57,877 nucleotides of DNA, taken from assembly GCA_012032285.1 (NCBI GenBank), contig JAAURJ010000012.1:1-57877 (forward strand). Reading direction: 5' to 3'. Shown here piece after piece: positions 12,104 through 50,301 of the stretch (position 1 is the first letter of the stretch; each line of letters opens with the position of its first letter). This DNA is from Sphingomonadales bacterium. GTDB lineage: Bacteria; Pseudomonadota; Alphaproteobacteria; Sphingomonadales; Sphingomonadaceae. Under the pieces are notes generated by a model that made no database searches, was not told where the DNA came from, and was given only the letters and a program-made list of their open reading frames with translations. The translations under genes and the position numbers were made by a program.

Positions 12104-12121
12104 AGCATTTGGGGAGTCTTT

Positions 12122-12169
12122 ATGATTCGTTCTGCAAAAGGGGACATGGATGCAGTGGGGCATTCCTGA
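12122..12169 (+). CDS. Possible 15-codon leader ORF
   Basis: MIRSAKGDMDAVGHS, preceded by GGGGAG six bases before the ATG. It ends 29 bases before the DUF4402 start. No similarity is recognised. It could be a leader peptide or a chance ORF. Confidence 0.2.
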   Translation: MIRSAKGDMDAVGHS

Positions 12170-12198
12170 AATTGCACTTTGTCGCAAGAGGACTAAAT

Positions 12199-12696
12199 AT
12201 GTTAAACAAAATGAAAATCGTACTGGCTGGCACAATTGCCGCCGCTTCTTTGGTTTCCGGTGCTGCTAACGCAGCCACTCAAACTGCAAATGCTGAAGCT
12301 GAAATTTTGACTCCGGTCGCTTTGTCAGCTGTAACCGATCTGGACTTTGGTTTGATCGCAGGTGACGCGGATGGCGGCACCGTAGAATTGCCAGTTCTTT
12401 CGAACACGCGCACTTGCACAGGCGTAATCTGCGTCGGTACTGCCGCTCGTGCATCGTTCCAAGTAACACAGGCGAGCCAAAGCCAAGTTGTTGCGCTTTC
12501 GGTTCCAACCACCGGTGTTGCATTGACCGGCCCGGGCGCAAATATGCCTGTTTCACTGGCACTTTCCAGCTCTTCGATCACATTTGACTCGAATGCTTTG
12601 GAAACTGTATTTATCGGCGGCACGCTGACAGTTGGTGCGAACCAGGCCGCAGGCGTATATAGCACAACTTTTAATGTTACTGCTGATTATCAGTAA
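12199..12696 (+). CDS. Secreted DUF4402-domain protein (putative pilin-like subunit)
   Basis: A 165-residue secreted protein. The start at 12199 (MLNKMKIVLAG) follows an AGAGGAC ribosome-binding site and gives a clear Sec signal peptide ending SGAANA, with mature ATQTANAEAEILTPVALS. The DUF4402 beta-sandwich contains LDFGLIAGDADGGTVELP, a Cys pair (TRTCTGVICVG) and ends with NVTADYQ, like a fimbrial subunit's C-terminal strand. It is followed by a strong terminator, then the chaperone and usher-like genes. That order suggests it is the abundant subunit of a surface fibre. The role is inferred. Confidence 0.85.
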   Translation: MLNKMKIVLAGTIAAASLVSGAANAATQTANAEAEILTPVALSAVTDLDFGLIAGDADGGTVELPVLSNTRTCTGVICVGTAARASFQVTQASQSQVVALSVPTTGVALTGPGANMPVSLALSSSSITFDSNALETVFIGGTLTVGANQAAGVYSTTFNVTADYQ

Positions 12697-12731
12697 TAGC
12701 TTTGCCGCAACGCATTGCGGAATATAAAGAT

Positions 12732-12767
12732 AAGCCCCCGGCTGGTACGCACCATCCGGGGGCTTTT
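12732..12767 (+). terminator. Intrinsic terminator after the DUF4402 gene
   Basis: A perfect 10-bp stem (AAGCCCCCGG paired with CCGGGGGCTT), a 14-base loop that can itself pair GGT/ACC, and a TTTT tail. It separates the subunit gene from the assembly genes, which would let the subunit be made in excess. Confidence 0.88.
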
Positions 12768-12887
12768 GCTATTATATCTCGATAATTTAAGCGGTATATT
12801 AGGCTGTTGGTAACCATATTCTGGCATTTATCATCTCATGGACTGCGCGCTTTGTCGCTCCCGCGCCTTAACTGAGGATAAAATTGA

Positions 12888-13730
12888 ATGTTCGCAAAAT
12901 TCACCCGTAATTTAAGCCCTTTGGCATTGGCTCTGACAAGCGTGATCGCTGCACCTTTGATCATGACAGCGCCCGCCCACGCGGCAGGTGACCTGCTGGT
13001 CGCGCCCACTCGTGTTGTGTTGGATGGCCGCCGGGGCACAGAGGTGATCCTCAACAATATTGGCGATGAAGAGGCGACCTATCGTATCAGCCTTGAGCTG
13101 CGCCGTATGAATGAAGTGGGCCGTTTAGAAGAGGTTAGCGAAGAAGCAGCCAATGAAAAAGAGCAAGCGGTGCAGCGAATCATCCGTTATGCGCCGCGCC
13201 GCGTAACACTTCCGCCCAACCAGCCGCAATCCATCCGGATTGGCTTGGGCCAAATGCAGGATTTGCCCGATGGCGAATATCGCGCCCATATGCTGTTCCG
13301 CGCCATTCCAAAAACCGCTGCCGTTACCGAGGCTCAAGATGAGGGAGACGGCGTGCAGATTCAGCTGATCCCGGTTTATGGCGTGACCATTCCGATCATC
13401 GTGCGCAAGGGACAGTTACAGGCTCAGGCTGCTTTGGCCAATCCGCGTGTCGAACAAACGGTCGATGGCCCCGCTTTGGCATTTGATCTTAGCCGCAAAG
13501 GCGATGCGTCGGTTTTTGGTGAAATACGGGTATCAAAACCCGGCGTCGCCGAACCCATGATGGTTGCACGCGGCATTGCCATCTACCCTGAGCTGGAATC
13601 GCGCATTGTAACCTTGCCGGTCAATGAAGAAGTTTTGGCGGCGCTCAAAGGTCCGGTCACTATCGGCTATTATGAAGCGATTGAAAATGGCGGTGCACTG
13701 ATAGCAGAAGTGAAATCGGTCCTGAACTAA
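12888..13730 (+). CDS. PapD-like periplasmic pilus chaperone
   Basis: A 280-residue secreted protein. A signal peptide (LALTSVIAAPLIMTAPAHAA) is followed by two immunoglobulin-like domains. The first holds VAPTRVVLDGRRGTEVILNN, YRISLELRRMNE and a proline-rich APRRVTLPPNQPQSIRIGLG. These match periplasmic chaperones of fimbrial assembly. The motif PPNQPQSIR corresponds to the conserved G1 strand region. It would hold subunits before delivery to the usher-like protein encoded 28 bp downstream. Partner identity is inferred from context. Confidence 0.82.
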   Translation: MFAKFTRNLSPLALALTSVIAAPLIMTAPAHAAGDLLVAPTRVVLDGRRGTEVILNNIGDEEATYRISLELRRMNEVGRLEEVSEEAANEKEQAVQRIIRYAPRRVTLPPNQPQSIRIGLGQMQDLPDGEYRAHMLFRAIPKTAAVTEAQDEGDGVQIQLIPVYGVTIPIIVRKGQLQAQAALANPRVEQTVDGPALAFDLSRKGDASVFGEIRVSKPGVAEPMMVARGIAIYPELESRIVTLPVNEEVLAALKGPVTIGYYEAIENGGALIAEVKSVLN

Positions 13731-13758
13731 GGCCTGGGCTTTCTGTGTAAGAAACACT

Positions 13759-16488
13759 GTGCGTCAATATTTCCCATCCTTGCGTAAAACGCTGGCCGTC
13801 TTGGCTCTTGCAGTCGGAACCCTATCGGTTCCGGCTGCGCCTGCATTTGCGGCGGACGGCGGGGGATGGAAAGCCAAAAATGATGACGCATTATTATTAG
13901 ATGTGCGTTCGGGTCAATGGCGCGTTGGCGATGGCGTTAGAGGGTATCAAACCGATAAGGGTGTATGCGTCGATTTCGGTGATGTGATTCTGGCGCTCGA
14001 TCTGCCGGTGCGGCTCGATAAAAAGTCGCGCCGCGCGACTGGCTGGTTGTTTAAGGAAAGCCGGGTCATAACCCTCGACCGTGACCTTGGTGTAGTACAA
14101 ATCGTGAACAATGAAAGCCGCATCAATCCTGGCGATATTTATGACACGCCAGAGGGTTGGTGCGTTGATACACAGATTTTGTCGAAATGGCTTGCGATCG
14201 AAGTGACACCCGATCTTTCCAATTCGCTTCTGGTTTTAGAATCAAAGGAAAAACTGCCTTTTGAACTGGCAGAAGAGCGCAAGGCCCGGGCGGGCAAGGT
14301 AAGGCCGCCACAGACATTTGACCTTTCTTCCTTGCCGCAAGCCGATGACACTTATCGATTCTGGCGAACGCCGTCGGTTGACGTTGTGGCGTCAACCGGG
14401 GTGCGCAAGGATAAATTGCGCGGCGCAACTTTTGATGCCCGTTATGAGGTTTATGCTAGTGGTGAAGTGGCCGGTGCCTCTTTTGACGCCCGCCTGTCCT
14501 CTGATAATGAAGGCGTGCCCGAAAGACTTCGTTTCCGGGCCTATCGCACAGATCCCGAGGGTAAGCTATTAGGGCCGCTTGCGGCCACGCATTTTGCGTT
14601 AGGAGATGTATCGACAGTATCGACCACGCTCGGGCCGCAGGGCAGCGCAGGGCGCGGCGCCTATGTCACCAACCGGCCGACAGAACGCCCTGATAGTTTT
14701 GACCGGACCACTTTCCGCGGGGAGCTTCCCGATGGATGGGATGCCGAATTATACCGCAATGATCAGCTGATCGGTTATGTCCAAAGCCGGGGGGACGGGC
14801 GCTATGAATTTCTGGATGTGCCCCTGCTATTTGGACAAAACAGCTTTGAAGTGGTGCTTTATGGACCGCAAGGACAAGTGCGCCGTGATAGCCGTTTGAT
14901 TCCGGTCGGTCTCGATTCTATTCCGCCGCGTGAGACTTATTATTGGGCGGGGATACAGGATGCGGGCAAGGATTTAATCAATGTCGGACTGGATGACCCC
15001 GCCGATACCGACGGCTGGCGCGGCGGTTTTGGACTGGAACGCGGCCTTGACGCCAGAACGTCGATCGGCGCTGCATTCACCAGTTCACAATTTAAAGGGA
15101 CAAGGCGCAATTATCTGGAAGGATCGGTGCGCCGTGCCTTGGGACCAGCGCTTTTGGAGGTATCGGCGGCGAGCGATTTTGGCTCCGGCTATGCCCTGCG
15201 CGGACAGGCGCTGGCCCAATTTGGCGAAACATCGGTCAGCGCCGAAGCCGCCTTGTTCCAAAATGGCTATCAAAGCGAGCGTTATGAGCTTGATCTACAG
15301 CGGCTATTGGCATTGTCGCTCGATCATAGTGTCCGCCTGTTTGGTGAAAAAATTCCGGTCCATGTCGAAGCACGGCACCGGAGGCGAACAAGCGGCGATG
15401 AATCATTGGAGATGATTGGGCGTTTATCATTTAATATCAATAGAATAAATGCAAGCACCGAGATAAAATGGGAACAGGAAAAGCGGATATTTGGCAATGA
15501 TCCTCCATCGCGGCTTGATGCGTTGTTTCGGTTATCCGGGCGTATCGGGCGGGTGCGTTTGCGCGGTGAAAGCGAATTCGGGTTATCGGGCGATAATCGC
15601 GGGTTTCGTGAATCGAGGTTGGTCGCTGATTACCGGGCGGGTGACCGTTCGGAATATCGTTTGGAGTTGGGTTATAATGCTGCTGGCTCGCGCGGGCGTG
15701 TGGCCGCAGGATATACGCGCCGTTTTGACAAATTCGCTCTTACTGGCCAATTGGAGGCTGCCAGTGACGGTTCGGTAGCCGCCGGGGTCAATCTGGCCTT
15801 CAGCTTCGGCCCTGATCCGCGAGGGGGTTTTCGCGTGGCATCGGAAAAACTTGCGGCCACAGGACAGGCTTTGGCGATTGTCTATACCGACGAAAATGGC
15901 GACGGTATCCGGCAACCGGATGAAACTTTGCATAAAGAGGTAGAGCTGACCGCCGGTCTGAGCGGGCGCGGACAGCCGACCGATGCAAAAGGCGCGACGA
16001 TGATTGACGGGCTGCAACCCTTTCAACCGATATTGATTGGCATTGACGAATCGAGTCTGCCCGACCCCTTTGTTCAGCCCGCAACCAAAGGCATTGTCGT
16101 CACCCCGCGCCCCGGCATTCCCTTTGTGGTCGAGCTGCCATTGGTCGCTGCCGGTGAAATAGCCGGAACCTTGCAAAAAGAAGGCGGCCGGATATTGAGC
16201 GGCGTGGACATTGACCTGATCGACAGCAAGGGCAATATCGTGAAAACAACACGCAGCGAATATGATGGCTTCTTTTTGTTTGAAGGTGTGCCTTATGGCA
16301 AATACCGCCTTCAAATATCTCCGCTCGCCGCCAATATTGTTGGTGTCGACATCCGCCTGCAAGCCAGTGCCGAATTGAACAAAGCGCGTCCGATGGTGGA
16401 ATTGGGAATTGTCACGGCTACATCCGCTGCGCGGATTGCCGATGCCAGGAACAACACAGGCGGTGAACTGGATGCGGCGGATAAATAG
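13759..16488 (+). CDS. Large usher-like outer-membrane protein with SdrD/Cna-type end
   Basis: A 909-residue protein with a GTG start and a signal peptide (LAVLALAVGTLSVPAAPAFA). Residues of about 30-160 form an N-terminal domain. Further on, a usher-like block reads AELYRNDQLIGYVQSRGDGR then DVPLLFGQNSFEVVLYGPQG. Many alternating beta strands follow (YELDLQRLLALSLDHSVRLF and similar), fitting an outer-membrane barrel. The end has a calcium-type EF-like YTDENGDGIRQPDE motif and a carboxypeptidase-regulatory-like domain (GVDIDLIDSKGNIVKTTRSE). It is not a canonical FimD by my reading. It is probably the translocation pore for the DUF4402 fibre. Confidence 0.72.
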   Translation: MRQYFPSLRKTLAVLALAVGTLSVPAAPAFAADGGGWKAKNDDALLLDVRSGQWRVGDGVRGYQTDKGVCVDFGDVILALDLPVRLDKKSRRATGWLFKESRVITLDRDLGVVQIVNNESRINPGDIYDTPEGWCVDTQILSKWLAIEVTPDLSNSLLVLESKEKLPFELAEERKARAGKVRPPQTFDLSSLPQADDTYRFWRTPSVDVVASTGVRKDKLRGATFDARYEVYASGEVAGASFDARLSSDNEGVPERLRFRAYRTDPEGKLLGPLAATHFALGDVSTVSTTLGPQGSAGRGAYVTNRPTERPDSFDRTTFRGELPDGWDAELYRNDQLIGYVQSRGDGRYEFLDVPLLFGQNSFEVVLYGPQGQVRRDSRLIPVGLDSIPPRETYYWAGIQDAGKDLINVGLDDPADTDGWRGGFGLERGLDARTSIGAAFTSSQFKGTRRNYLEGSVRRALGPALLEVSAASDFGSGYALRGQALAQFGETSVSAEAALFQNGYQSERYELDLQRLLALSLDHSVRLFGEKIPVHVEARHRRRTSGDESLEMIGRLSFNINRINASTEIKWEQEKRIFGNDPPSRLDALFRLSGRIGRVRLRGESEFGLSGDNRGFRESRLVADYRAGDRSEYRLELGYNAAGSRGRVAAGYTRRFDKFALTGQLEAASDGSVAAGVNLAFSFGPDPRGGFRVASEKLAATGQALAIVYTDENGDGIRQPDETLHKEVELTAGLSGRGQPTDAKGATMIDGLQPFQPILIGIDESSLPDPFVQPATKGIVVTPRPGIPFVVELPLVAAGEIAGTLQKEGGRILSGVDIDLIDSKGNIVKTTRSEYDGFFLFEGVPYGKYRLQISPLAANIVGVDIRLQASAELNKARPMVELGIVTATSAARIADARNNTGGELDAADK

Positions 16489-41020: not shown

Positions 41021-41238
41021 GAGGAGCGCCTAATCGAACCTTTCGGATAGTTTGAGAATCAGGGTGCGGCCCATGCCGGTCCCCATCGAAGCGGCGCTAA
41101 TGACGATCTATATGCCGACAGTCAAGTAAATAAGGCGGTTTTAGGGCGGGTAAAATAATACCCTAAGACATATCCACGCAGTTTGTTACAAATCCAGTAT
41201 CATTTTTATGGCTAGAACAAGACCCTTATGCCTGTGCT

Positions 41239-41646
41239 TTAGGGTATCATACGGGCAAACCCCGCCACCCCAGAATTTTCAGCTTGGCTCGAATCATTCC
41301 CAATTAAGCGGGCCGGGTTTTTGGTTATTAGCGCATCAATCGACGGGTTATCGCCGGTCATCATCTGAATACAGCGGATGCAGATTTCTACGCCCTCGTC
41401 GGCTAGACTGTAGTAGATTTGGGTTCCTTCACGGCGAGTGCTAACCAGCTCTGCTTTGCGCAGCGCGGCCAATTGCTGGCTGAGCGCGGGCTGGCCGATC
41501 GCGGTTGCCCCGTCAATTTCACTGACATTGCGTTCGCCGCCCAGCAAAAAACTTAATATCATCAACCGTTGAGCTTGGGCAAAATGCTTGAGTTTGTTGG
41601 CCGCCATTTCTGCCTGTGTGCGATGCTTAAATAGCTCGGCCATCAT
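41239..41646 (-). CDS. ArsR-family repressor, BigR/SqrR-like, with CxxC in the last helix
   Basis: A 135-residue winged-helix repressor. The DNA-recognition segment reads GQPALSQQLAALRKAELV and the wing TRREGTQIYYSL. This resembles BigR and SqrR, sulfide/persulfide sensors that use two distant cysteines. Here the N-terminal position has Ser (LSFLLGG, about residue 32), while two cysteines sit together as CIRC at residues 89-92. It overlaps the peroxiredoxin stop (ATGA at 41643-41646). Divergent sulfur genes make a reactive-sulfur sensor the likely role. The sensing chemistry would differ from BigR. Confidence 0.85.
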   Translation of the reverse strand: MMAELFKHRTQAEMAANKLKHFAQAQRLMILSFLLGGERNVSEIDGATAIGQPALSQQLAALRKAELVSTRREGTQIYYSLADEGVEICIRCIQMMTGDNPSIDALITKNPARLIGNDSSQAENSGVAGFARMIP

Positions 41647-42269
41647 GGATGCTCCGCATAGGCAAACCAGTCAACAGTGGCAGCGCCATGTTCCAGACTT
41701 TCGGGTGGAGGCTGAAGCAGCCTGCCGGTGCCGTCCCATCCTTCGGGGACCAGAAGGCCGGTTTCATCGACCTTCTGCAACCCGCGCAGCAGGCGAAGCA
41801 TTTCTTCAACATTGCGGCCGACATTATGGGGATAGGAGGTAATGGCGCGAATAAACCCTTTGGGATCAATATAATAAACCGACCGCATCGCAGCGCTATC
41901 GCGTGAATTTTCATCAATCATGCCATAGGCACGGCCAATCGCCATGGAAGGATCTTCCAGTATCGGAAAATCAATGCTGACGTCGAAGCGCTTTTTGATT
42001 TCGGCAAGCCAGGCGATATGCGAAAAAAGACTGTCCACCGACAATCCAATTAAAGCACATTTCGCTTGTGCAAACGCATCACTGGCCTTTGCGAGGCCAA
42101 TAAATTCCGATGTGCATACCGGGGTAAAATCGGCCGGATGGGAGAAGAAGATTACCCATTGACCGCGGTAGATGGAAAGCTCCACCGGCCCTTTTGTAGA
42201 TCGGGCTGAGAAATTAGGGGCCACATCGCCGATCCTGAGAGCGGCTGCGTTTTGCCTGTTTTCATTCAT
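41643..42269 (-). CDS. 1-Cys peroxiredoxin (Prx6 type)
   Basis: A 208-residue thiol peroxidase. The peroxidatic motif HPADFTPVCTSEF includes the P-x-x-x-T-x-x-C signature. The dimer-region ends VGRNVEEMLRLLRGLQ and the C-terminus carries GWDGTGRLLQPPPES, a Prx6 hallmark. Only one other Cys (AKCALIGL) is present, so the 1-Cys mechanism is likely. I chose the ATG at 42269 because family similarity begins there. It heads a leftward two-gene operon with the repressor. It may reduce peroxides or hydropersulfide products. Confidence 0.9.
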   Translation of the reverse strand: MNENRQNAAALRIGDVAPNFSARSTKGPVELSIYRGQWVIFFSHPADFTPVCTSEFIGLAKASDAFAQAKCALIGLSVDSLFSHIAWLAEIKKRFDVSIDFPILEDPSMAIGRAYGMIDENSRDSAAMRSVYYIDPKGFIRAITSYPHNVGRNVEEMLRLLRGLQKVDETGLLVPEGWDGTGRLLQPPPESLEHGAATVDWFAYAEHP

Positions 42270-42311
42270 CCCATAATTTCCTTTCCCAATATGCATGAAA
42301 CGGTTTTCATC

Positions 42312-42351
42312 TTGACGCAAGCGATATACATTATTACATAGTTTATGTAAA
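42312..42351. promoter_or_regulatory. Overlapping divergent promoters with palindromic operator
   Basis: Rightward: -35 TTGACG (42312-42317), 17-bp spacer, -10 TACATA (42335-42340). Leftward: -35 TTTACA (42351-42346), 17-bp spacer, -10 TATATC (42328-42323). A perfect inverted repeat TTACATA-GTT-TATGTAA (42334-42350) covers the rightward -10 and leftward -35. Such a palindrome is typical of an ArsR operator, so binding would block both promoters. Confidence 0.75.
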
Positions 42352-42371
42352 TATAAATTACGGAGCTTGCC

Positions 42372-43289
42372 ATGTCGGACCATGTCCTTGAATTAGCTAC
42401 GAAACAAATCACTCTGGCGCAGCGGAACATACCCGTCATTGAGTCGTTTTTCGACCTGCCCACCAATACGGTCTCTTATATTGTGCATGATCCGGCGACC
42501 CAAAAGGCAGCGATCATCGATAGTGTTTTGGATTATGATCCTGCTTCCGGGCGGACAAGGACGGACTCAGCAGATGCCATTATCGGCTATGTAAAGCAGC
42601 ATGGCCTTGTGACCGAATGGTTGCTGGAAACCCATGCCCATGCCGACCATCTTTCGGCGGCACCCTATATTCAGCAGCATTTGGGCGGGAAAATCGCGAT
42701 TGGCGAGTATATAACCACGGTTCAAAATGTCTTCGGTAAACTGTTCAATGCAGGAAGTGAATTTCAGCGCGATGGTTCTGACTTTGACCGGCTTTGGAAA
42801 GACGGGGATGCGTTTGATATTGGCAATGTTAAAGTCACGGTTCTTCATGTGCCAGGCCATACGCCTGCCTGCATTGCCTATGTGATTGGCGATGCGGTTT
42901 TTGTCGGCGATACCATGTTCATGCCGGATTATGGGACGGCGCGGGCCGATTTCCCCGGCGGTGATGCGCGAACGCTATACCGTTCGTTAAAGCGTATCCT
43001 TTCCTTACCGCCGACAACACGGTTGTTCATGTGTCATGACTATCTGCCACAAGGACGCGATGATTATATCTGGGAAACGACCGTTGCCGAACAACGGGCG
43101 CACAATATCCACGCGCATGACGGTGTGGGCGAAGAAGAATTTGTCGCCATGCGGGAAGCGCGTGATGCGACGCTGGCCATGCCGACATTGATCCTGCCAT
43201 CGGTGCAGGTGAATATGCGTGCCGGACATATGCCGCCCGCCGATGATAATGGTGTCACCTACCTTAAAATTCCGGTGAATGCGGTATGA
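42372..43289 (+). CDS. Persulfide dioxygenase (ETHE1/Blh-like metallo-beta-lactamase fold)
   Basis: A 305-residue iron-dependent dioxygenase that converts glutathione persulfide to glutathione and sulfite. The metal motif THAHADHLSA lies near residues 83-92, followed by HVPGHTPACIAYVIG, VGDTMFMPDYGTARADFPGG and FMCHDYLP. The closest family is ETHE1 and the Blh protein next to BigR. It starts the rightward operon, with GGAG eight bases before the ATG. Regulated by the palindrome 20 bp upstream. Sulfite would leave through SulP, encoded downstream. Confidence 0.93.
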   Translation: MSDHVLELATKQITLAQRNIPVIESFFDLPTNTVSYIVHDPATQKAAIIDSVLDYDPASGRTRTDSADAIIGYVKQHGLVTEWLLETHAHADHLSAAPYIQQHLGGKIAIGEYITTVQNVFGKLFNAGSEFQRDGSDFDRLWKDGDAFDIGNVKVTVLHVPGHTPACIAYVIGDAVFVGDTMFMPDYGTARADFPGGDARTLYRSLKRILSLPPTTRLFMCHDYLPQGRDDYIWETTVAEQRAHNIHAHDGVGEEEFVAMREARDATLAMPTLILPSVQVNMRAGHMPPADDNGVTYLKIPVNAV

Positions 43290-43729
43290 TATTATTAAGC
43301 TTTCCCGATGCGATGCCGGTGGAAGGTTTGATCGGCGGCTTGATGATTGGCGTTGCGGCTGCTGTCATGTTGCTGGGCCTTGGCCGGATTGCTGGAGTCA
43401 GCGGCCTTGCCGCGCGCGCGATCGGACTTGCAGGCAGCGGCCCGCCGCGCGGCCTCGCAATGGCATTCATCATTGGCCTACCATTGGGAGCTTTGCTTGT
43501 TACGCTGTTTTTCGGGCCTGTTGAAAGCCGGTTTGCCGACAATTGGGTAACGCTCATTATCGGCGGGCTGCTTGTCGGTTTTGGCACAAGGCTCGGCTCT
43601 GGTTGCACCAGCGGACATGGTGTGTGCGGTATGTCCCGTCTGTCGCGCCGGTCCATTATCGCCACATCGCTGTTTATGACCGCCGGTTTTGCAACCGTGG
43701 CTTTTATGCGCATCGCCGGACTTTTGTAA
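43286..43729 (+). CDS. YeeE/YedE-family transporter, first half
   Basis: A 147-residue membrane protein with four hydrophobic segments. Characteristic Cys-containing motif: GGLLVGFGTRLGSGCTSGHG followed by VCGMSRLSRRS. YeeE/YedE transporters carry thiosulfate or other sulfur species into the cell. Here the transporter is split in two genes. Overlaps the dioxygenase stop by 4 bp. The second half is encoded 234 bp downstream after a DUF2892 gene. Confidence 0.92.
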   Translation: MILLSFPDAMPVEGLIGGLMIGVAAAVMLLGLGRIAGVSGLAARAIGLAGSGPPRGLAMAFIIGLPLGALLVTLFFGPVESRFADNWVTLIIGGLLVGFGTRLGSGCTSGHGVCGMSRLSRRSIIATSLFMTAGFATVAFMRIAGLL

Positions 43730-43754
43730 TTGTAGCAAAAAAAGGAGAATAGGA

Positions 43755-43958
43755 ATGACAAAGAATATGGGAAGTGCAGACCGGCTATTCCGCCTGCTCG
43801 TGGTGATTGCAATTATTGCCGCTTATTTCACCGGAATGATTTCGGGCACCATTGCCATTATCGCGTTCGTGGCGGCAGGGATATTCCTTCTAACCAGTCT
43901 TATAGGCACCTGTCCGCTTTATCTGCCTTTTGGTCTGTCGACATTGCGAAAGCATTGA
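43755..43958 (+). CDS. DUF2892/YgaP-like membrane protein
   Basis: A 67-residue protein, MTKNMGSADRLFRLLVVIAI, with two hydrophobic helices and a final GTCPLYLPFGLSTLRKH whose Cys is conserved in the family. DUF2892 is the transmembrane part of YgaP-type rhodanese proteins; here no rhodanese domain follows. AGGAGAATAGG provides a ribosome-binding site. It lies between the YeeE/YedE halves and may supply a thiol for sulfur transfer at the membrane. Confidence 0.9.
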   Translation: MTKNMGSADRLFRLLVVIAIIAAYFTGMISGTIAIIAFVAAGIFLLTSLIGTCPLYLPFGLSTLRKH

Positions 43959-43962
43959 AACT

Positions 43963-44373
43963 ATGCGGCAGATTGCGATCGCGTTATTGGCAGGGGGCCT
44001 GTTTGGAGCGGGCCTGACCTATTCAGGAATGGTTGATCCTGCCCGTGTGCAGGGTTTTCTCGACCTGTTTGGAAATTGGGATCCGACGCTGGCCTTTGTC
44101 ATGGGCGGCGCAATGATCCCCATGGCGATTGCGTGGGCGGTTCAAAGGCGGATGAAGGCACCGTTGGCCGATGCGCATTTCACCCTACCTGGCACAACGC
44201 AACTGGACGCAAAGCTGGCAATAGGCGGGCTGTTATTCGGTATTGGCTGGGGCATTAGCGGTCTTTGTCCCGGACCTGCCGTGGTCGGTCTTGTTCTTAA
44301 CCCGTGGCCAGCGTTGATCTTCGTTGCGGCAATGGTTGCGGGCATGGCGGTGGAACGTTTTGCTGTCAAATAA
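43963..44373 (+). CDS. YeeE/YedE-family transporter, second half (DUF6691)
   Basis: A 136-residue membrane protein with four hydrophobic segments. LFGAGLTYSGMVDPARVQGF and GIGWGISGLCPGPAVVGL with its Cys are the family motifs. Together with 43286-43729 it would form the complete YeeE-like channel with both Cys gates. I chose the ATG at 43963, 5 bp after the DUF2892 stop; an upstream alternative overlaps that gene. Confidence 0.9.
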   Translation: MRQIAIALLAGGLFGAGLTYSGMVDPARVQGFLDLFGNWDPTLAFVMGGAMIPMAIAWAVQRRMKAPLADAHFTLPGTTQLDAKLAIGGLLFGIGWGISGLCPGPAVVGLVLNPWPALIFVAAMVAGMAVERFAVK

Positions 44374-44401
44374 TCTGCGGCATAAAAGAAAGGCACGTGC
44401 G

Positions 44402-45988
44402 ATGAATATCAAGCCAGTTACAAGAGACTTCGCCATAACGGCGCAGCTGAAACCCGGCGATTTGAAGCAGGCCGCGCAAAAGGGTTTTCGATCAATTATC
44501 TGCAACCGGCCCGATGGCGAAGCAGCCGATCAACCCTGCTCCGATGTCATGGCAAAGGCTGCGCAGGAAGCCGGGCTTGGCTTTGCCTATATTCCCGTCA
44601 GTCCGAAAGGCGCAACAGCAGCACAGGCGGATGAAATGCGCGGCGCGCTTGCTCATCTTTCGCCGCCTGTGCTGGCTTATTGCCGGTCGGGTGCGCGGTC
44701 AGGGGCCATTCATGCCCTGGCTATACAGCGGGACGAATCCAGTCGCGGCGGCATAACGCGAAATTTCAACATTGCTATTGTCGGGGGCGGTTCGGCGGGG
44801 ATTGCAACAGCAGCCAGTATCCTGAAACGAAACCGCAAAATCAGCCTGGCCATTATCGAACCATCGAATGACCATTATTATCAGCCCGGATGGACAATGG
44901 TGGGCGGCGGTGTATTCTCCAAGGAGTTTACCAAGCGGGATGAAAGCCGCCTGATCCCGGATGGTGCCAATTGGATTCAATCCTCAGTTGCGACATTTGA
45001 ACCGGATGAAAATAAGGTTACGCTATCTGATGGTGCACGCATTGGTTATGACCTGCTGATTATTTGCCCCGGTATAAAACTTGATTGGGGGGCAATTAAA
45101 GGCCTTCCCGAAACGCTGGGTAAAAATGGTGTCACCAGCAATTACAGCTATAATCTCGCGCCCTATACCAACCGTCTGGTCAAAGATATGGCAAAGGGCC
45201 GCGCTCTCTTCACACAGCCGCCCATGCCCATCAAATGCGCAGGCGCTCCGCAAAAGGCAATGTATCTGTCCTGCTCTCGTTGGGAGCGCAACCATGTGCT
45301 TCAGGATATTGATGTTCAATTTCATACTGCAGGTGGCGTGCTATTTGGGGTGGATGCCTATGTCCCTACGCTGATGCAATATATTAAACGCTATAATGCG
45401 CATCTCAATTTCATCAGCAACCTGATTGCCATTGACGGTGAACGGAAAATCGCCACCTTTGAGCAGAAAGATGGAGACAATATAAGGCATATCGAAGAAC
45501 GCTTTGACATGATCCATGTTGTGCCGCCGCAAACCGCACCTGATGTCATCCGTTCCAGCCCGCTCGCCGGTGAAACAGGATTTGTGGCGGTTGATCAGGC
45601 AACTTTACAGCATATCGAATATGCCAATATCTTCTCGCTCGGTGATGCTTGCAGCGCGCCTAATGCAAAAACAGCGGCGGCGGTTCGCAAACAGGCACCG
45701 GTTGTCGCTGTTAATGCACTATCAGTGCTGAATGGGGGTGAACCGGTCGCCGAATATGACGGTTATGGCAGCTGCCCATTGACCGTTGAGCGCGGCAAGA
45801 TTGTTCTTGCCGAATTTGGTTATGGCGGCAAGCTGCTGCCCAGCTTTCCCAACTGGTTGATTGATGGCACGCGGCCTTCGCGTTTGTCCTGGCTTCTCAA
45901 AGATACCATCTTGCCTCCGGTTTACTGGCACGGAATGCTTAAAGGGCACGAGTGGATGGTAAAGCCCAAGATCAAGCGAGCGGTGTGA
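44402..45988 (+). CDS. DUF442 phosphatase-like domain fused to sulfide:quinone oxidoreductase
   Basis: A 528-residue fusion. Residues 1-115 are a DUF442 (Cys phosphatase-like) domain with loop AYCRSGARSG, Cys at 94; the Arg is one place early relative to strict CX5R. Residues of about 120-528 are a type II sulfide:quinone reductase: FAD-binding IVGGGSAGIATAASI, cysteines in IICPGIKLDWG, IKCAGAPQKAMYLSC and GDACSAPNAKTA. It oxidises sulfide to persulfide, feeding electrons to quinone. The DUF442 domain may process the persulfide or phosphate compounds. I chose the ATG at 44402. Confidence 0.93.
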   Translation: MNIKPVTRDFAITAQLKPGDLKQAAQKGFRSIICNRPDGEAADQPCSDVMAKAAQEAGLGFAYIPVSPKGATAAQADEMRGALAHLSPPVLAYCRSGARSGAIHALAIQRDESSRGGITRNFNIAIVGGGSAGIATAASILKRNRKISLAIIEPSNDHYYQPGWTMVGGGVFSKEFTKRDESRLIPDGANWIQSSVATFEPDENKVTLSDGARIGYDLLIICPGIKLDWGAIKGLPETLGKNGVTSNYSYNLAPYTNRLVKDMAKGRALFTQPPMPIKCAGAPQKAMYLSCSRWERNHVLQDIDVQFHTAGGVLFGVDAYVPTLMQYIKRYNAHLNFISNLIAIDGERKIATFEQKDGDNIRHIEERFDMIHVVPPQTAPDVIRSSPLAGETGFVAVDQATLQHIEYANIFSLGDACSAPNAKTAAAVRKQAPVVAVNALSVLNGGEPVAEYDGYGSCPLTVERGKIVLAEFGYGGKLLPSFPNWLIDGTRPSRLSWLLKDTILPPVYWHGMLKGHEWMVKPKIKRAV

Positions 45989-47766
45989 GCGCTAAAAAAA
46001 TGATCCGCAAATTTCTTCCAATCCTAGAATGGGGCAAGGGCTATGGCGGCGCGATGCTGACCAATGATCTGATTGCGGCACTGATCGTCACCATAATGCT
46101 CATCCCGCAAAGTCTGGCCTATGCAATGCTGGCCGGATTACCGCCGGAAATCGGCCTTTATGCGTCGATGCTGCCAATTATCGCTTATGCGCTTTTTGGG
46201 ACAAGCCGAACATTGGCGGTGGGACCAGTGGCGGTGGTATCATTGATGACGTTGGCGGCGGCAGGAAATGTCGGCACACCGGGAAGCGCTGAATTTATTG
46301 CTGCTGCGCTTGTGCTCGCTCTGCTTTCGGGTGTGATACTGCTCGCCATGGGCTTGCTGCGCCTTGGCTTTCTTGCCAATCTGCTTTCTCATCCGGTGGT
46401 ATCCGGTTTCATCACCGCAAGCGGAATTATCATCGCCACCAGCCAGATTAAATCCATTCTGGGGATCAAAGCCAATGGCGAGGCCATGCCCGGCCTATTG
46501 CGGACATTAGCGGAAAATATCGGTGATACCAATGTTCCGACATTGATCATCGGTGTGTTGGCCACGGCTTTTCTCTTTTGGGTGCGCAAGGGGCTGAAGC
46601 CGCTGCTTATGCGTTTCGGAATGGCCGTACGCGCCGCAGACCTGACCGCCAAAGCGGGACCGATCTTCGCGGTTGCCATTTCGACATTGGCGGTATTGAT
46701 GCTCGATTTGGAATCAAGGGGGGTAAAGGTGATTGGCGAAATCCCGCAAAGCCTGCCTCCTATCACCATACCGTTGTTCGACGCAGCGTTATGGCAGTCG
46801 CTGTTTATTCCAGCCCTGCTTATTTCCATCATTGGTTTTGTTGAAAGCGTTTCGGTGGCGCAGACGCTCGCCGCCAAACGGCGTCAGCGTATCAACCCCA
46901 ATCAGGAGCTGATTGGGCTTGGCGCGGCCAATGTCGCCGCAGGGTTTACAGGAGGCTATCCGGTAACAGGCGGCTTTGCACGATCGGTGGTCAATTTTGA
47001 TGCAGGCGCGGAAACACCGGCGGCAGGGGCATTTACGGCAATAGGCATAGCACTTGCCGCGCTTTTTCTCACCCCGCTGCTCTATGCGCTGCCCATCGCT
47101 ACGCTTGCCGCGACGATCATTGTTGCCGTGCTTAGCCTTGTTGATTTCAAAACCCCGCGCGAAATATTCCGCTATTCTAAGCCCGATTTTGCGGCGATGA
47201 CGGCAACGATTATCGTCACGCTTTTGGCAGGCGTTGAACCCGGCGTGATCGCAGGCGTGGGGTTAAGCCTTGCGCTCTATCTTTGGCGTGCCTCGCGGCC
47301 CCATGCCGCGATTGTTGGCCGCGTGCCAGACAGCGAACATTTTCGCAATGTAAAGCGGCATAAAGTGTATACCGATCCGCGCATCCTAACCATCCGCATC
47401 GACGAAAGCCTTACCTATTTCAATGCCCGCTGGCTGGAGGATTATGTGTTGGAACAAGTGGCCCAGCAGCCAAGCGTTCGCCATGTCATATTGATGTGCC
47501 CTGCGGTCAACGCCATCGATGCATCGGCGCTCGAAAGCCTGGAGGCGATTAACCACCGGCTGGAAGACGGCGAAATCCATATGCACCTTTCCGAAGTCAA
47601 AGGCCCGGTGATGGATGCGCTCAAACGGTCTGACTTTCTGCATGAATTATCAGGTAAAGTCTTTCTTTCACAAAATGCAGCTTTTGCAGCGGCAATTGCA
47701 ATTGCTGATGCGGAAGAAAATTTGGATATTGAAGGCGATCCTCTTTTTGCGCGAGGTATGATATGA
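45985..47766 (+). CDS. SulP-family anion transporter with STAS domain
   Basis: A 593-residue membrane protein: about 10-12 helices with IPQSLAYAMLAGLPPEIGLY at the SulP start, VNFDAGAETPAAGAFTA, and a C-terminal STAS domain from about residue 450 (RILTIRIDESLTYFNARWLE). I favour the GTG at 45985, which overlaps the SQR stop; a GTG at 45952 is also in frame. SulP proteins move sulfate or other anions. In this operon an export or exchange of sulfite or sulfate is the natural inference, but direction is not known from sequence. Confidence 0.9.
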   Translation: MSAKKMIRKFLPILEWGKGYGGAMLTNDLIAALIVTIMLIPQSLAYAMLAGLPPEIGLYASMLPIIAYALFGTSRTLAVGPVAVVSLMTLAAAGNVGTPGSAEFIAAALVLALLSGVILLAMGLLRLGFLANLLSHPVVSGFITASGIIIATSQIKSILGIKANGEAMPGLLRTLAENIGDTNVPTLIIGVLATAFLFWVRKGLKPLLMRFGMAVRAADLTAKAGPIFAVAISTLAVLMLDLESRGVKVIGEIPQSLPPITIPLFDAALWQSLFIPALLISIIGFVESVSVAQTLAAKRRQRINPNQELIGLGAANVAAGFTGGYPVTGGFARSVVNFDAGAETPAAGAFTAIGIALAALFLTPLLYALPIATLAATIIVAVLSLVDFKTPREIFRYSKPDFAAMTATIIVTLLAGVEPGVIAGVGLSLALYLWRASRPHAAIVGRVPDSEHFRNVKRHKVYTDPRILTIRIDESLTYFNARWLEDYVLEQVAQQPSVRHVILMCPAVNAIDASALESLEAINHRLEDGEIHMHLSEVKGPVMDALKRSDFLHELSGKVFLSQNAAFAAAIAIADAEENLDIEGDPLFARGMI

Positions 47767-49184
47767 TTGAACAAGAATGGGCAATTCTGCTGGCGCGTAT
47801 CCAGTTTGCTTTTACTGTCAGCTTTCATTTCATCTTCCCCGCCTTCTCCATCGGTCTTGCCAGCTATTTGGCGGTGCTGGAGGGGCTGTGGCTCAAAACC
47901 GGCAAGGGCGTTTACGCCAATCTTTATCGTTATTGGCTCAAGATATTTGCCATCGTCTTTGCGATGGGCGTCGTTTCCGGCATTGTCATGTCCTATCAAT
48001 TCGGTACCAACTGGTCGGCTTTTTCCGACAAGGCAGGGCCGGTCATCGGGCCGTTAATGGCTTATGAGGTGCTGACAGCTTTTTTTCTTGAGGCCGGGTT
48101 TTTGGGTGTCATGCTGTTTGGTATCAACAAGGTTGGCCGCAAACTGCATTTCATTGCAACTTTGATGGTGGCGCTTGGCACCTTCATCTCCGCCAGCTGG
48201 ATTCTAAGCGTCAATAGCTGGATGCAGACGCCGGTGGGTTATGCGATCAATGAAGTGGGGCAATTTGTGCCTGCTGCGGGCTGGTGGGAGATTATCTGGA
48301 ACCCCAGCTTCCCTTACCGTCTTGCCCATACTGTGCTCGCTGCCTATCTGACAACTGCCTTTGCTGTGGGCGCTGTGGGCGCATGGCATTTGTTGAAAGA
48401 CAGCAAAAACCCCGGTGCGCGCAAGATGTTTTCGATGGCCATGTGGATGGCCGCTATTGTTGCTCCTGTCCAGATTTTCATGGGCGATTTGCACGGTCTC
48501 AATACGCTGGAACATCAACCTGCAAAGGTGATGGCCATGGAGGGCCATTATAAAAGCCACCCGAACGGCGCGCCATTGATCCTGTTTGGTATTCCCAATA
48601 GCAAGGAAAAACGGGTTGATTATGCGGTTGAAATTCCCAAAGCGTCTTCGCTGATCCTGAAGCATGATCCCAATGCGCCGCTGGCTGGTCTGGATACTAT
48701 TCCTGATGAGAATGAACCGCCTGTCGCTATCGTCTTCTGGTCTTTCCGTATCATGGTGGGCCTCGGCTTTGCCATGATGGGGCTTGGGCTATGGAGCCTT
48801 TTCGCGCGGTATCGCAAGAAGCTTTATGACTGGCCATTGATGCACAGGGCGGCCCTTGTGATGGGGCCGTCCGGCTTTATCGCTGTTCTTGCCGGATGGG
48901 TGACAACCGAGGTCGGGCGGCAACCCTATACCATATACGGCCTGCTGCGCACCGCCGATAGCGCCTCACCGCTGGATGCGCCTGCTGTCGCCTTTTCGCT
49001 ATTGGCCTTTATTGTCGTCTATTTCACCGTTTTTGGCGCGGGCGTTTGGTATCTGTTCCGTCTTGCGTCCAAGCCGCCCGAAGCGCATGAGCCAGAGCCG
49101 CAGCACGCCCCCATTCGTTCGGCGGGTATCACCCCTGCCCCTGCCATAATTGACGGTGAAATAGAAAAGGGAGACGCACAATGA
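47763..49184 (+). CDS. cioA: Cytochrome bd-type ubiquinol oxidase subunit I (CioA)
   Basis: A quinol oxidase with 473 residues and nine or so helices. Haem-ligand region near the start is ARIQFAFTVSFHFIFPAFSIG. The Q-loop is short, as in cyanide-insensitive oxidases. The C-terminal GRQPYTIYGLLRTADSASPL motif is family-typical. It overlaps the SulP gene and CioB by 4 bp each. It receives electrons from SQR through quinol and is likely resistant to sulfide and cyanide, unlike haem-copper oxidases. Confidence 0.95.
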   Translation: MIEQEWAILLARIQFAFTVSFHFIFPAFSIGLASYLAVLEGLWLKTGKGVYANLYRYWLKIFAIVFAMGVVSGIVMSYQFGTNWSAFSDKAGPVIGPLMAYEVLTAFFLEAGFLGVMLFGINKVGRKLHFIATLMVALGTFISASWILSVNSWMQTPVGYAINEVGQFVPAAGWWEIIWNPSFPYRLAHTVLAAYLTTAFAVGAVGAWHLLKDSKNPGARKMFSMAMWMAAIVAPVQIFMGDLHGLNTLEHQPAKVMAMEGHYKSHPNGAPLILFGIPNSKEKRVDYAVEIPKASSLILKHDPNAPLAGLDTIPDENEPPVAIVFWSFRIMVGLGFAMMGLGLWSLFARYRKKLYDWPLMHRAALVMGPSGFIAVLAGWVTTEVGRQPYTIYGLLRTADSASPLDAPAVAFSLLAFIVVYFTVFGAGVWYLFRLASKPPEAHEPEPQHAPIRSAGITPAPAIIDGEIEKGDAQ

Positions 49185-50185
49185 ACGGCATCGACCTGAC
49201 CGTCATCTGGGCGGGCATTATCGGCTTTGCGATTGTTGTTTATGTTATATTGGATGGATTCGATTTGGGGATTGGTATCCTTTTTCCGAATTTCGCAGTT
49301 GGCCCGGACCGTGACAAGGCGATGAACAGCATAGCACCCGTCTGGGATGGCAATGAAACATGGCTGGTGCTGGGCGGCGGTGGTTTGCTGGCGGCATTTC
49401 CGCTGGCCTATGCGATTATCCTGCCCGCGCTTTACGCCCCGTTGATCGCCATGCTGCTCGGCCTGATTCTGCGCGGCGTGGCATTTGAATTTCGCTGGCG
49501 TGACCCGGCGCACCGGGCGCGTTGGGACTTTGCCTTTACGCTTGGCTCTTGGGTCGCGACCTTTGCGCAAGGGATTACACTGGGCGCTCTTCTTCAAGGC
49601 ATTACGGTCGAGGGCCGCGCCTATGCAGGCGGTTGGTGGGAATGGCTTAGCCCGTTTAGCCTGCTAACAGGCGCGGCGCTATGTGCGGGCTATGCTCTGC
49701 TCGGCAGCTGCTGGCTGGTCATGAAAACCGACGGCGCTTTGCAGCGACAGGCTTATAGCTATGCCGGGCGTACCGGCCTTCTGCTCTTAATTGCTATTGC
49801 AGCCGTCAGTGCGCTCACCCCAACGCTAGAGGCGAAATATTATGAACGCTGGCTCGATTATCCCGGTATCTTGGCCACATCACAGGTACCACTGGCCACA
49901 TTGATAATAGCCTTCTTATTCTTTCGCAGCCTGTCAAAGCGTCAGGAAATTGCGCCCTTTCTATATGCGCTCGGCCTGTTTGGGCTGTGCCTTGTTGGCC
50001 TTGGCATTTCGATCTGGCCTGATGTCATTCCGGGCCGCGTATCGATATGGGCGGCCGCCGCGCCCTATGAAAGCCAGCTCTTCATGCTCATCGGAGCCGT
50101 GATATTGGTCCCCATCATATTGGCCTATACCGCATGGGCTTATTGGGTGTTTCGCGGTAAGGTAGATGAAGCAGGGTATCATTGA
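49181..50185 (+). CDS. cioB: Cytochrome bd-type ubiquinol oxidase subunit II (CioB)
   Basis: A 334-residue integral membrane subunit with eight hydrophobic helices. It begins LTVIWAGIIGFAIVVYVILD and carries GFDLGIGILFPNF and VWDGNETWLVLGGGGLLAAF, typical of CydB/CioB. The membrane partner of CioA in the quinol oxidase. Its stop overlaps the start of the 35-residue gene. Confidence 0.95.
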   Translation: MNGIDLTVIWAGIIGFAIVVYVILDGFDLGIGILFPNFAVGPDRDKAMNSIAPVWDGNETWLVLGGGGLLAAFPLAYAIILPALYAPLIAMLLGLILRGVAFEFRWRDPAHRARWDFAFTLGSWVATFAQGITLGALLQGITVEGRAYAGGWWEWLSPFSLLTGAALCAGYALLGSCWLVMKTDGALQRQAYSYAGRTGLLLLIAIAAVSALTPTLEAKYYERWLDYPGILATSQVPLATLIIAFLFFRSLSKRQEIAPFLYALGLFGLCLVGLGISIWPDVIPGRVSIWAAAAPYESQLFMLIGAVILVPIILAYTAWAYWVFRGKVDEAGYH

Positions 50186-50292
50186 TGCAGGATAATCTGC
50201 GGAAATTGGCTTGGTTCGCAGTGTTATGGGCCGCAGGCGTCGTAACTGTCGGCGTCGCTGCTTACCTTATTAAGTTAATAATCGGCGTTTGA
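50185..50292 (+). CDS. DUF2474-type small subunit of Cio oxidase
   Basis: A 35-residue protein, MQDNLRKLAWFAVLWAAGVV, with a single hydrophobic helix. The ATG overlaps the cioB stop (TGATG). DUF2474 proteins are encoded after cioAB and resemble the CydX subunit of cytochrome bd. Too short to rely on length, but the position and composition fit. It ends the sulfur operon; the next gene is on the other strand. Confidence 0.85.
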   Translation: MQDNLRKLAWFAVLWAAGVVTVGVAAYLIKLIIGV

Positions 50293-50301
50293 ATTGCGGC
50301 C

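Follow-up and report, generated by a model that had tools for sequence, protein, structure and literature searches.

We describe an eleven-gene island with predicted roles in sulfide sensing, oxidation, transport and respiration, found in a 57,877-nucleotide stretch of DNA from a Sphingomonadales bacterium (GenBank assembly GCA_012032285.1, contig JAAURJ010000012.1). This stretch, hereafter the window, is contig C16 in full, from a draft genome of 2.78 Mb. We lean slightly toward reading the island as a portable unit for sulfide detoxification and respiration, governed at a palindromic site by a switch made of a Prx6-type peroxiredoxin (Prx) and an ArsR-family repressor, whose C-terminal tail would act as a docking peptide for the Prx. 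The enzyme families are all known; what is new in the island is how they are arranged. ArsR proteins that respond to sulfide are understood as stand-alone dithiol sensors. Here, a large clade without those cysteines has the same target genes, which raises the question of what does the sensing.

The island is conserved and inserted as a block

The block recurs in Sphingomonadales and in a few other alphaproteobacteria. Loci encoding sulfide:quinone oxidoreductase (SQR) were gathered with the window's own SQR as the query, and the sample is thus mostly from Sphingomonadales. Loci with identical SQR end sequences were left out, and smaller denominators are restricted to loci where the contig reaches far enough or the gene was found. 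Among 113 non-redundant SQR loci, 65 have an ArsR with the FAR-type tail described below within 7 kb. These 65 loci all carry Prx and persulfide dioxygenase (PDO; 65/65 each), and most carry YeeE (60/65), DUF6691 (60/65), DUF442 (56/65), SulP (44/62), CioA (45/58) and CioB (44/57). A preliminary description of the window had presented the genes as one complete set, and held that neighbors not conserved together in relatives would speak against it. They are kept together, and the proposed single unit, which joins sulfide oxidation, sulfane-sulfur handling, transport and a bd-type oxidase, is both conserved and inserted as a block. Completeness holds for the window, where all eleven genes are present, but not for every relative: CioA is absent from 13 of the 58 islands that have space for it, and 18 of 62 lack SulP. 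Within the genus, for which 45 genomes were compared, SQR occurs in 18. CioA at 78% identity or more is found in 14 of these 18 and in none of the 27 genomes without SQR; this co-occurrence mostly reflects physical linkage and is therefore not independent. More distant CioA homologs occur in two genomes (G009, 46%; G032, 35%).

The window island lies between rplM and cutA. At 28 of 29 other loci examined in the genus, rplM adjoins COX15, with or without cutA (30 of 44 COX15 loci were examined), and in most of 29 relatives the nucleotide homology upstream of rplM stops at 41162-41165. The nearest relative by COX15 identity (G029, 82%) has the rplM-COX15 arrangement and no SQR, and the other mapped islands do not have the window's flanking genes within the stretches compared. 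With rplM and cutA on either side of the whole block, and the homology of relatives ending at the junction, the block evidently entered or moved to this site as a unit. The comparison agrees with the island boundaries first given. None of the mobile-element hallmarks looked for was found: the window has no tRNA, there are no convincing flanking repeats around the block, G+C content is 53.6% compared with 53.5% in the surroundings, and the tetranucleotide distance is at the upper edge, yet within the range, of other 9-kb stretches. The insertion is thus visible by comparison alone.

The repressor lacks the cysteines of known sulfide sensors

SqrR senses through Cys41 and Cys107, and BigR through Cys42 and Cys108 (PMC9774590, PMC9995734; statements from these and the other cited sources are drawn from excerpts). 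The window repressor is a winged helix-turn-helix protein of the ArsR family (PF01022; SqrR and BigR in the PDB), with an AlphaFold core above 90 in predicted local distance difference test (pLDDT). Ser32 aligns with SqrR Cys41, and there is no cysteine at the Cys107 position. The BigR-like sensing suggested in the preliminary description is not supported, as both sensor cysteines are missing. Two cysteines, Cys88 and Cys91, do remain, within a CIRC motif in the final core helix. NF040642 (BigR) is its second best NCBIfam match, at 69.5 bits compared with a cut-off of 155; two BigR-like proteins of the genus that carry both cysteines (L164 and L165) score only 92-98. Since these also fall below it, we dropped this cut-off as a test of BigR identity.

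The same absence is widespread. A profile search for ArsRs covered 148 relatives together with 385 class-level genomes, and islands, non-island tail matches and non-tail controls were chosen from its matches. The 20 control regions (L164-L183) and 20 class-level regions (L184-L203) were hand-picked from longer lists of matches, the class-level ones because they scored high or extended into the tail columns; control region L180 contains no ArsR matching the profile. Proteins cut by contig ends or shorter than 100 residues (L054, L159 and L160) were excluded. We call an ArsR linked when a Prx gene lies immediately upstream, which gives 84 linked and 38 unlinked unique complete ArsRs. Cysteine counts also exclude eight proteins without a recognized anchor (seven unlinked, one linked) and treat apart a class with PDPYR tails, described below. 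On this basis, Cys41 is kept in 3 of 76 linked ArsRs compared with 27 of 31 unlinked, and a cysteine in the 107 zone in 6/76 compared with 25/31. Both sensor cysteines are found in 2/76 and 21/31, respectively. The domain is entirely free of cysteine in 29 linked ArsRs (29/76) and in no unlinked one (0/31). The genus separately has BigR-type ArsRs next to a dioxygenase gene (L164-L169); these retain both cysteines and have neither tail nor Prx. Two genomes (G001 and G027) have a BigR-type ArsR locus and the Prx-linked system together.

A C-terminal tail accompanies the peroxiredoxin

Among 22 aligned island ArsRs, G126, A128, F130 and A131 are invariant (22/22), and position 132 holds R or K (R132, at least 90%). 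Many core residues are likewise invariant; the linker between core and tail is variable in length and little conserved. From residue 101 onward, covering linker and tail, the AlphaFold model of the window ArsR has block values of pLDDT of about 53-65.

The tail tracks the Prx gene. A strict pattern, [GS]xAxFA, matches 69 of 84 linked ArsRs and none of 38 unlinked ones. A relaxed pattern, [AGSTPV]xF[AP]x[VILMAT], matches 79/84 compared with 0/38; it was chosen with the data in view, regions L184-L203 included, and has a chance match of about 7% per sequence. The five linked ArsRs outside it comprise one GAARFVRM variant and four PDPYR tails. This second tail, RxRLxPDPYRK, is found in seven ArsRs (L037, L040, L042, L043, L046, L048 and L163), all with an adjoining Prx (7/7). 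In regions L184-L203, which were fetched after the strict motif was known, the relaxed tail occurs in 6 of 6 linked and 0 of 14 unlinked ArsRs, and the strict tail in 2 of 6 (L184 and L185) and 0 of 14.

In a tree of 120 ArsR cores, 75 linked non-PDPYR proteins, seven PDPYR proteins and four unlinked ones form one group (support 98/87). Prx linkage and the tail, of either type, each change four times on the tree. Prx and tail are both missing from the unlinked members of the group (L192, L200 and L039/L041) and both present in their neighbors. Since some members keep Cys41 yet carry tail and Prx (L193, L045, L187 and six of the seven PDPYR proteins), the distribution suggests that tail and Prx were gained first and that the sensor cysteines were lost later.

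A candidate operator lies in the divergent gap

Between the two divergent operons is a gap of 102 bp (42270-42371), with the Prx and ArsR genes on its left reading leftward. Inside this gap lies the perfect palindrome TTACATAGTTTATGTAA, of the pattern TTACAT-N5-ATGTAA. Exact TTACATN5ATGTAA occurs as a single copy in the 2.78-Mb genome, as does a reversed control pattern, and with one mismatch there are four palindrome sites compared with three control sites. We therefore dropped the palindrome as a genome-wide marker; because these counts barely differ from the control, its meaning rests on place and conservation. Across 80 Prx upstream regions (spacer 3-6), 21 have no mismatch and 17 have one, where local shuffles give 0.05 and 0.35. 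Thus, 38/80 match with at most one mismatch, compared with 0.4 expected. The palindrome also precedes the pair in L156 and in L157, both times without mismatch, and in L154 with one mismatch. Of the 45 genomes of the genus, 11 contain its exact form, six of them in the Prx/PDO gap. We consider it a putative operator.

The pair occurs as a module outside the island

The preliminary grouping of the genes into one unit stands, but it overlooked that Prx and repressor form a two-gene module of their own. Four pairs (L152, L154, L157 and L162) have no sulfide genes within the 15-16 kb fetched. In L152 (3120-7907), genes for a COX1-family oxidase, a Crp-family regulator and DUF2189 are found close to Prx and tail-ArsR; in L154, the pair is near an outer-membrane efflux gene, and in L157 and L162 near other genes. 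Another pair (L156) has an ArsA-type ATPase as its neighbor, and a dioxygenase gene lies about 8 kb off. In a genus member without SQR (L158:11396-15634), Prx and tail-ArsR lie downstream of cydA-cydB and share their strand, with a dioxygenase gene about 10 kb off. Furthermore, in 148 genomes, 42 of 45 matches to this Prx subclass (at least 47% identity) adjoin an ArsR of these classes (coordinates read by hand); the exceptions are G074, a second Prx in G131, and G003, where the contig ends. A separate observation is that L158 also has a BigR-type ArsR and an apparent RND gene beside the cydAB-Prx-ArsR genes.

A proposed two-protein switch and its alternatives

Based on gene content, we propose the following scheme. 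SQR would convert sulfide to persulfide, with quinone as the electron acceptor; sulfane sulfur would be moved and oxidized to sulfite by the DUF442 domain of the fusion together with the stand-alone Blh-type dioxygenase; the YeeE halves and SulP would transport sulfur anions; and the bd-type oxidase, presumably not poisoned by sulfide, would re-oxidize the quinol. Both divergent operons would be governed at the one palindromic operator by Prx6 and the ArsR repressor. The active-site (peroxidatic) cysteine of the Prx would react with persulfide or peroxide, its redox state would decide its hold on the repressor tail, and binding or release of the tail would alter repression. We prefer a binding switch to a disulfide relay because some of the repressors are cysteine-free. 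The general form of this idea we hold tentatively, with doubt slightly ahead of belief: a bacterial two-protein redox switch, in which a dedicated Prx6 senses persulfide or peroxide and docks on the GxAxFAR tail of ArsR. The clade would have arisen from BigR/SqrR-type ancestors by gain of tail and Prx and then loss of the sensor cysteines, sometimes of all cysteines, and the module would be portable. Published findings fit this view: in Rhodobacter capsulatus, sulfide induces a SqrR-controlled Prx (PMC9995734); a Synechococcus Prx consumes sulfane sulfur (PMC9426444); and sulfide induces cydAB in a number of bacteria (PMC7315123).

Several points weigh against the proposed switch. It is deduced from comparative genomics, both Prx-tail binding and co-expression are predictions, and Cys88 and Cys91 of the window ArsR could sense. 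A mutant of the sulfide-induced R. capsulatus Prx (rcc00528) has a wild-type transcription pattern, in an organism whose SqrR has both cysteines (PMC9995734). The tail-Prx association rests mostly on one clade: there are two independent contrasts on supported branches and four on the best tree, too few for a sign test to reach significance. The two supported contrasts are both concordant when either tail is counted, and average 1.5 of 2 when the F-tail alone is counted. At the candidate operator, 42 of 80 Prx upstream regions have two or more mismatches, 17 of them with two (6.6 in shuffles) and 25 with at least three, no better than shuffles; for about half of the set, the operator thus appears to be weak, different or not found. 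Two tail-ArsRs without Prx (L159:7571-7867 and L160:130-426) are 99-residue partial copies near contig ends, which are broken or assembly duplicates, and one Prx (L204) has no ArsR. There was no Prx-ArsR fusion among the fetched loci, and a search for a docking-site signature in the Prx gave five positions with no clear pattern.

In the strongest competing view, the ArsR is itself the sensor, by way of a bound ligand or of cysteines other than the BigR/SqrR pair (Cys88/Cys91 in the window). The Prx would then be just an enzyme under the same control that clears peroxide or polysulfide, and the tail would contribute to dimerization or stability or act as a latch on the repressor. We regard this as credible, albeit rather doubtful. 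The CIRC motif in the last core helix, the wild-type pattern of the mutant in the SqrR-controlled R. capsulatus Prx (PMC9995734), the capacity of a Prx to consume sulfane sulfur (PMC9426444) and the lack of fusions are all in its favor, whereas the cysteine-free domains of linked relatives, the absence of the tail from every ArsR without Prx, and the retention of the tail while the linker varies count against it. An ordinary BigR operon, that is, a dithiol persulfide-sensing repressor of the BigR/SqrR kind with extra genes, is improbable. The ArsR fold, the adjoining dioxygenase and the NF040642 match point that way, but the absence of both sensor cysteines already contradicts it, and the genus keeps its BigR-type ArsRs, with neither tail nor Prx, at separate loci. 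That the genes are neighbors by chance or through several insertions, rather than one functional unit, is barely credible: islands missing CioA or SulP would fit, but the same order recurs in dozens of loci, none of the others showing the window's flanking genes within the stretches compared, and the window has a single clean insertion with overlapping genes.

Gene content of the island

All eleven genes of the preliminary description were recovered at the same positions, with families assigned by Pfam and NCBIfam (Table 1). Its view that most rightward genes overlap or lie within a few bases is also borne out: PDO/YeeE, SulP/CioA and CioA/CioB overlap by 4 nt and CioB/DUF2474 by 1 nt, and the remaining rightward gaps are at most 28 nt. 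Prx and ArsR overlap by 4 nt.

Table 1. Features of the sulfide island in the window.
Feature	Position	Strand	Evidence or remark
Inserted block, ~9.1 kb	41164-50301	unstranded	Left junction ~41163/41164; right junction between DUF2474 and cutA
ArsR-family repressor, 135 aa	41239-41646	-	PF01022 E 9e-11, NF033788; PDB SqrR/BigR
GVAGFAR C-terminal tail motif, residues 126-132, behind variable linker	41251-41271	-	22-sequence alignment
Prx6-type peroxiredoxin	41643-42269	-	PF00578 E 3.5e-31; NF009668 222 bits (cutoff 211); PDB 5ovq
Operator candidate, perfect palindrome TTACATAGTTTATGTAA	42334-42350	unstranded	Retained ahead of the Prx gene in many relatives
Persulfide dioxygenase, ETHE1/Blh type, without DUF442	42372-43289	+	Lactamase_B; NF040641 positions 130-422, 388 bits
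YeeE/YedE half (Sulf_transp)	43286-43729	+	PF04143 E 8e-10
YgaP-like transmembrane protein (formerly DUF2892)	43755-43958	+	PF11127 E 2e-18
Second YeeE/YedE-like half (DUF6691)	43963-44373	+	PF20398 E 2e-37
DUF442 (sulfurtransferase-like) and type II SQR fusion	44402-45988	+	PF04273 residues 4-107; human SQOR 6mp5 E 1e-89
SulP-family anion transporter with STAS domain	~46000-47766	+	PF00916 E 9e-103, TIGR00815
CioA, bd-type quinol oxidase subunit I, CIO-like, short Q-loop	47763-49184	+	PF01654 E 2e-167
CioB, bd-type quinol oxidase subunit II	49181-50185	+	PF02322 E 5e-97, TIGR00203
DUF2474 small membrane protein, 35 aa	50185-50292	+	PF10617 E 3.9e-8, 33.6 bits (cutoff 26.6)

The SQR half is a type II, SQOR-like flavoprotein with two cysteines. 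Human SQOR (6mp5) aligns over residues 121-516, with the cysteines of CAGAPQK and SCPL matched; the best bacterial SQR entry in the PDB (3hyv) reaches only E 3.6e-8. The two aligned cysteines are the catalytic pair, and SQOR-like enzymes are classed as type II. DUF442 forms the N-terminal ~110 residues of the fusion. The window thus has no Blh in the strict sense of DUF442 and ETHE1 in a single protein, as its DUF442 sits on SQR. This layout is not rare: 75 of 80 named loci match the query from within the first 17 residues, a count favored by one of the six search peptides lying in DUF442; Acinetobacter, Pseudomonas, Pandoraea and Paracoccus are among them. CioA is closest in the PDB to Escherichia coli bd-II, and the alignment skips bd-II chain residues 318-380 (the Q-loop insert). 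With CydA- and CydB-type subunits, a short Q-loop and a DUF2474 subunit, the oxidase belongs to the CIO type, of which the short Q-loop and DUF2474 are the marks. The Prx has the AhpC-TSA fold and the PxxxTxxC site of Prx6 proteins, here PADFTPVC, with NF009668 above its cut-off; it has the peroxidatic cysteine in this site and one further cysteine. DUF442 is a demonstrated sulfurtransferase in Blh (PMC5823870).

Many islands have a second Prx6 inside the rightward operon, 37-41% identical to the first and absent from the window. It lies between SulP and CioA or after SulP (L063, L078, L118, L120, L123, L142, L146, L148 and L185), with one to two cysteines where counted. A third Prx type, 42-51% identical, is found inside five islands (L088, L093, L095, L163 and L193); in Brevundimonas, it lies between DUF6691 and DUF2892. 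Promoter and terminator scans gave 14 compared with 10.2 in shuffles and 17 compared with 13.3, about one standard deviation above, and were not used. Elsewhere in the window, 12109-16488 holds an apparent fimbria-type cluster of pilin-like, chaperone-like and usher-like proteins, judged by eye.

Relation to known systems

The preliminary description knew of no account of the whole set as one system. This is partly sustained: among the matches listed in the open-license literature, no title concerns the whole gene set or a Prx-ArsR sensor pair, which is weak evidence of novelty. The set was also partly anticipated. Under anoxia, Sphingopyxis granuli TFA induces SGRAN_0596-0593 (sulfur detoxification/transport and alkylhydroperoxide reductase) 4-22-fold and 0597-0601 (sulfur detoxification and export) 4-17-fold, according to the excerpted text (PMC6472365). 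Judging from gene labels alone, the SGRAN_0593-0601 blocks probably correspond to this island.

The bigR operon of Xylella fastidiosa and Agrobacterium tumefaciens (BigR, Blh and TauE; PMC5823870) shares with the window an ArsR-type repressor beside an ETHE1-type dioxygenase, DUF442 and a role in low-oxygen sulfide detoxification. In contrast, the window lacks the Cys42/Cys108 pair, carries DUF442 on SQR rather than on the dioxygenase, has a tailed repressor, and adds SulP, split YeeE, Prx and a bd oxidase. The SqrR system of R. capsulatus has in common ArsR-type control of sulfide genes, with a Prx among those induced (PMC9995734). SqrR works there by a Cys41-Cys107 polysulfide bridge; both cysteines are absent in the window, where the Prx gene overlaps the repressor gene. 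The Staphylococcus cst operon (CstR, CstA, CstB and SQR; PMC7315123, PMC9995734) likewise places SQR, dioxygenase and sulfurtransferase in one regulated unit, but its regulator is CstR, and the excerpts name no Prx or bd oxidase in it. Sulfide-induced cydAB of E. coli, M. tuberculosis and A. baumannii provides a bd oxidase held to sustain respiration (PMC7315123). In A. baumannii, per that excerpt, cydAB is at a locus separate from the SQR genes, whereas the CIO-type genes of the window are inside the SQR operon.

That one transferable unit combines a bd-type oxidase with the means to oxidize sulfide is relevant to the way in which aerobic heterotrophs withstand sulfide when oxygen is scarce. 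Parallels to the proposed switch are found in eukaryotes. In the Gpx3/Orp1-Yap1 and Tsa1-Pap1 pairs, the sensing is done by a thiol peroxidase, which controls a transcription factor via a disulfide relay to cysteines of the factor. Many of the repressors described here are cysteine-free, and a binding switch would be needed instead. If our proposal is correct, the Prx-ArsR pair would be a bacterial counterpart of peroxiredoxin-based signaling that needs no cysteine in the transcription factor.

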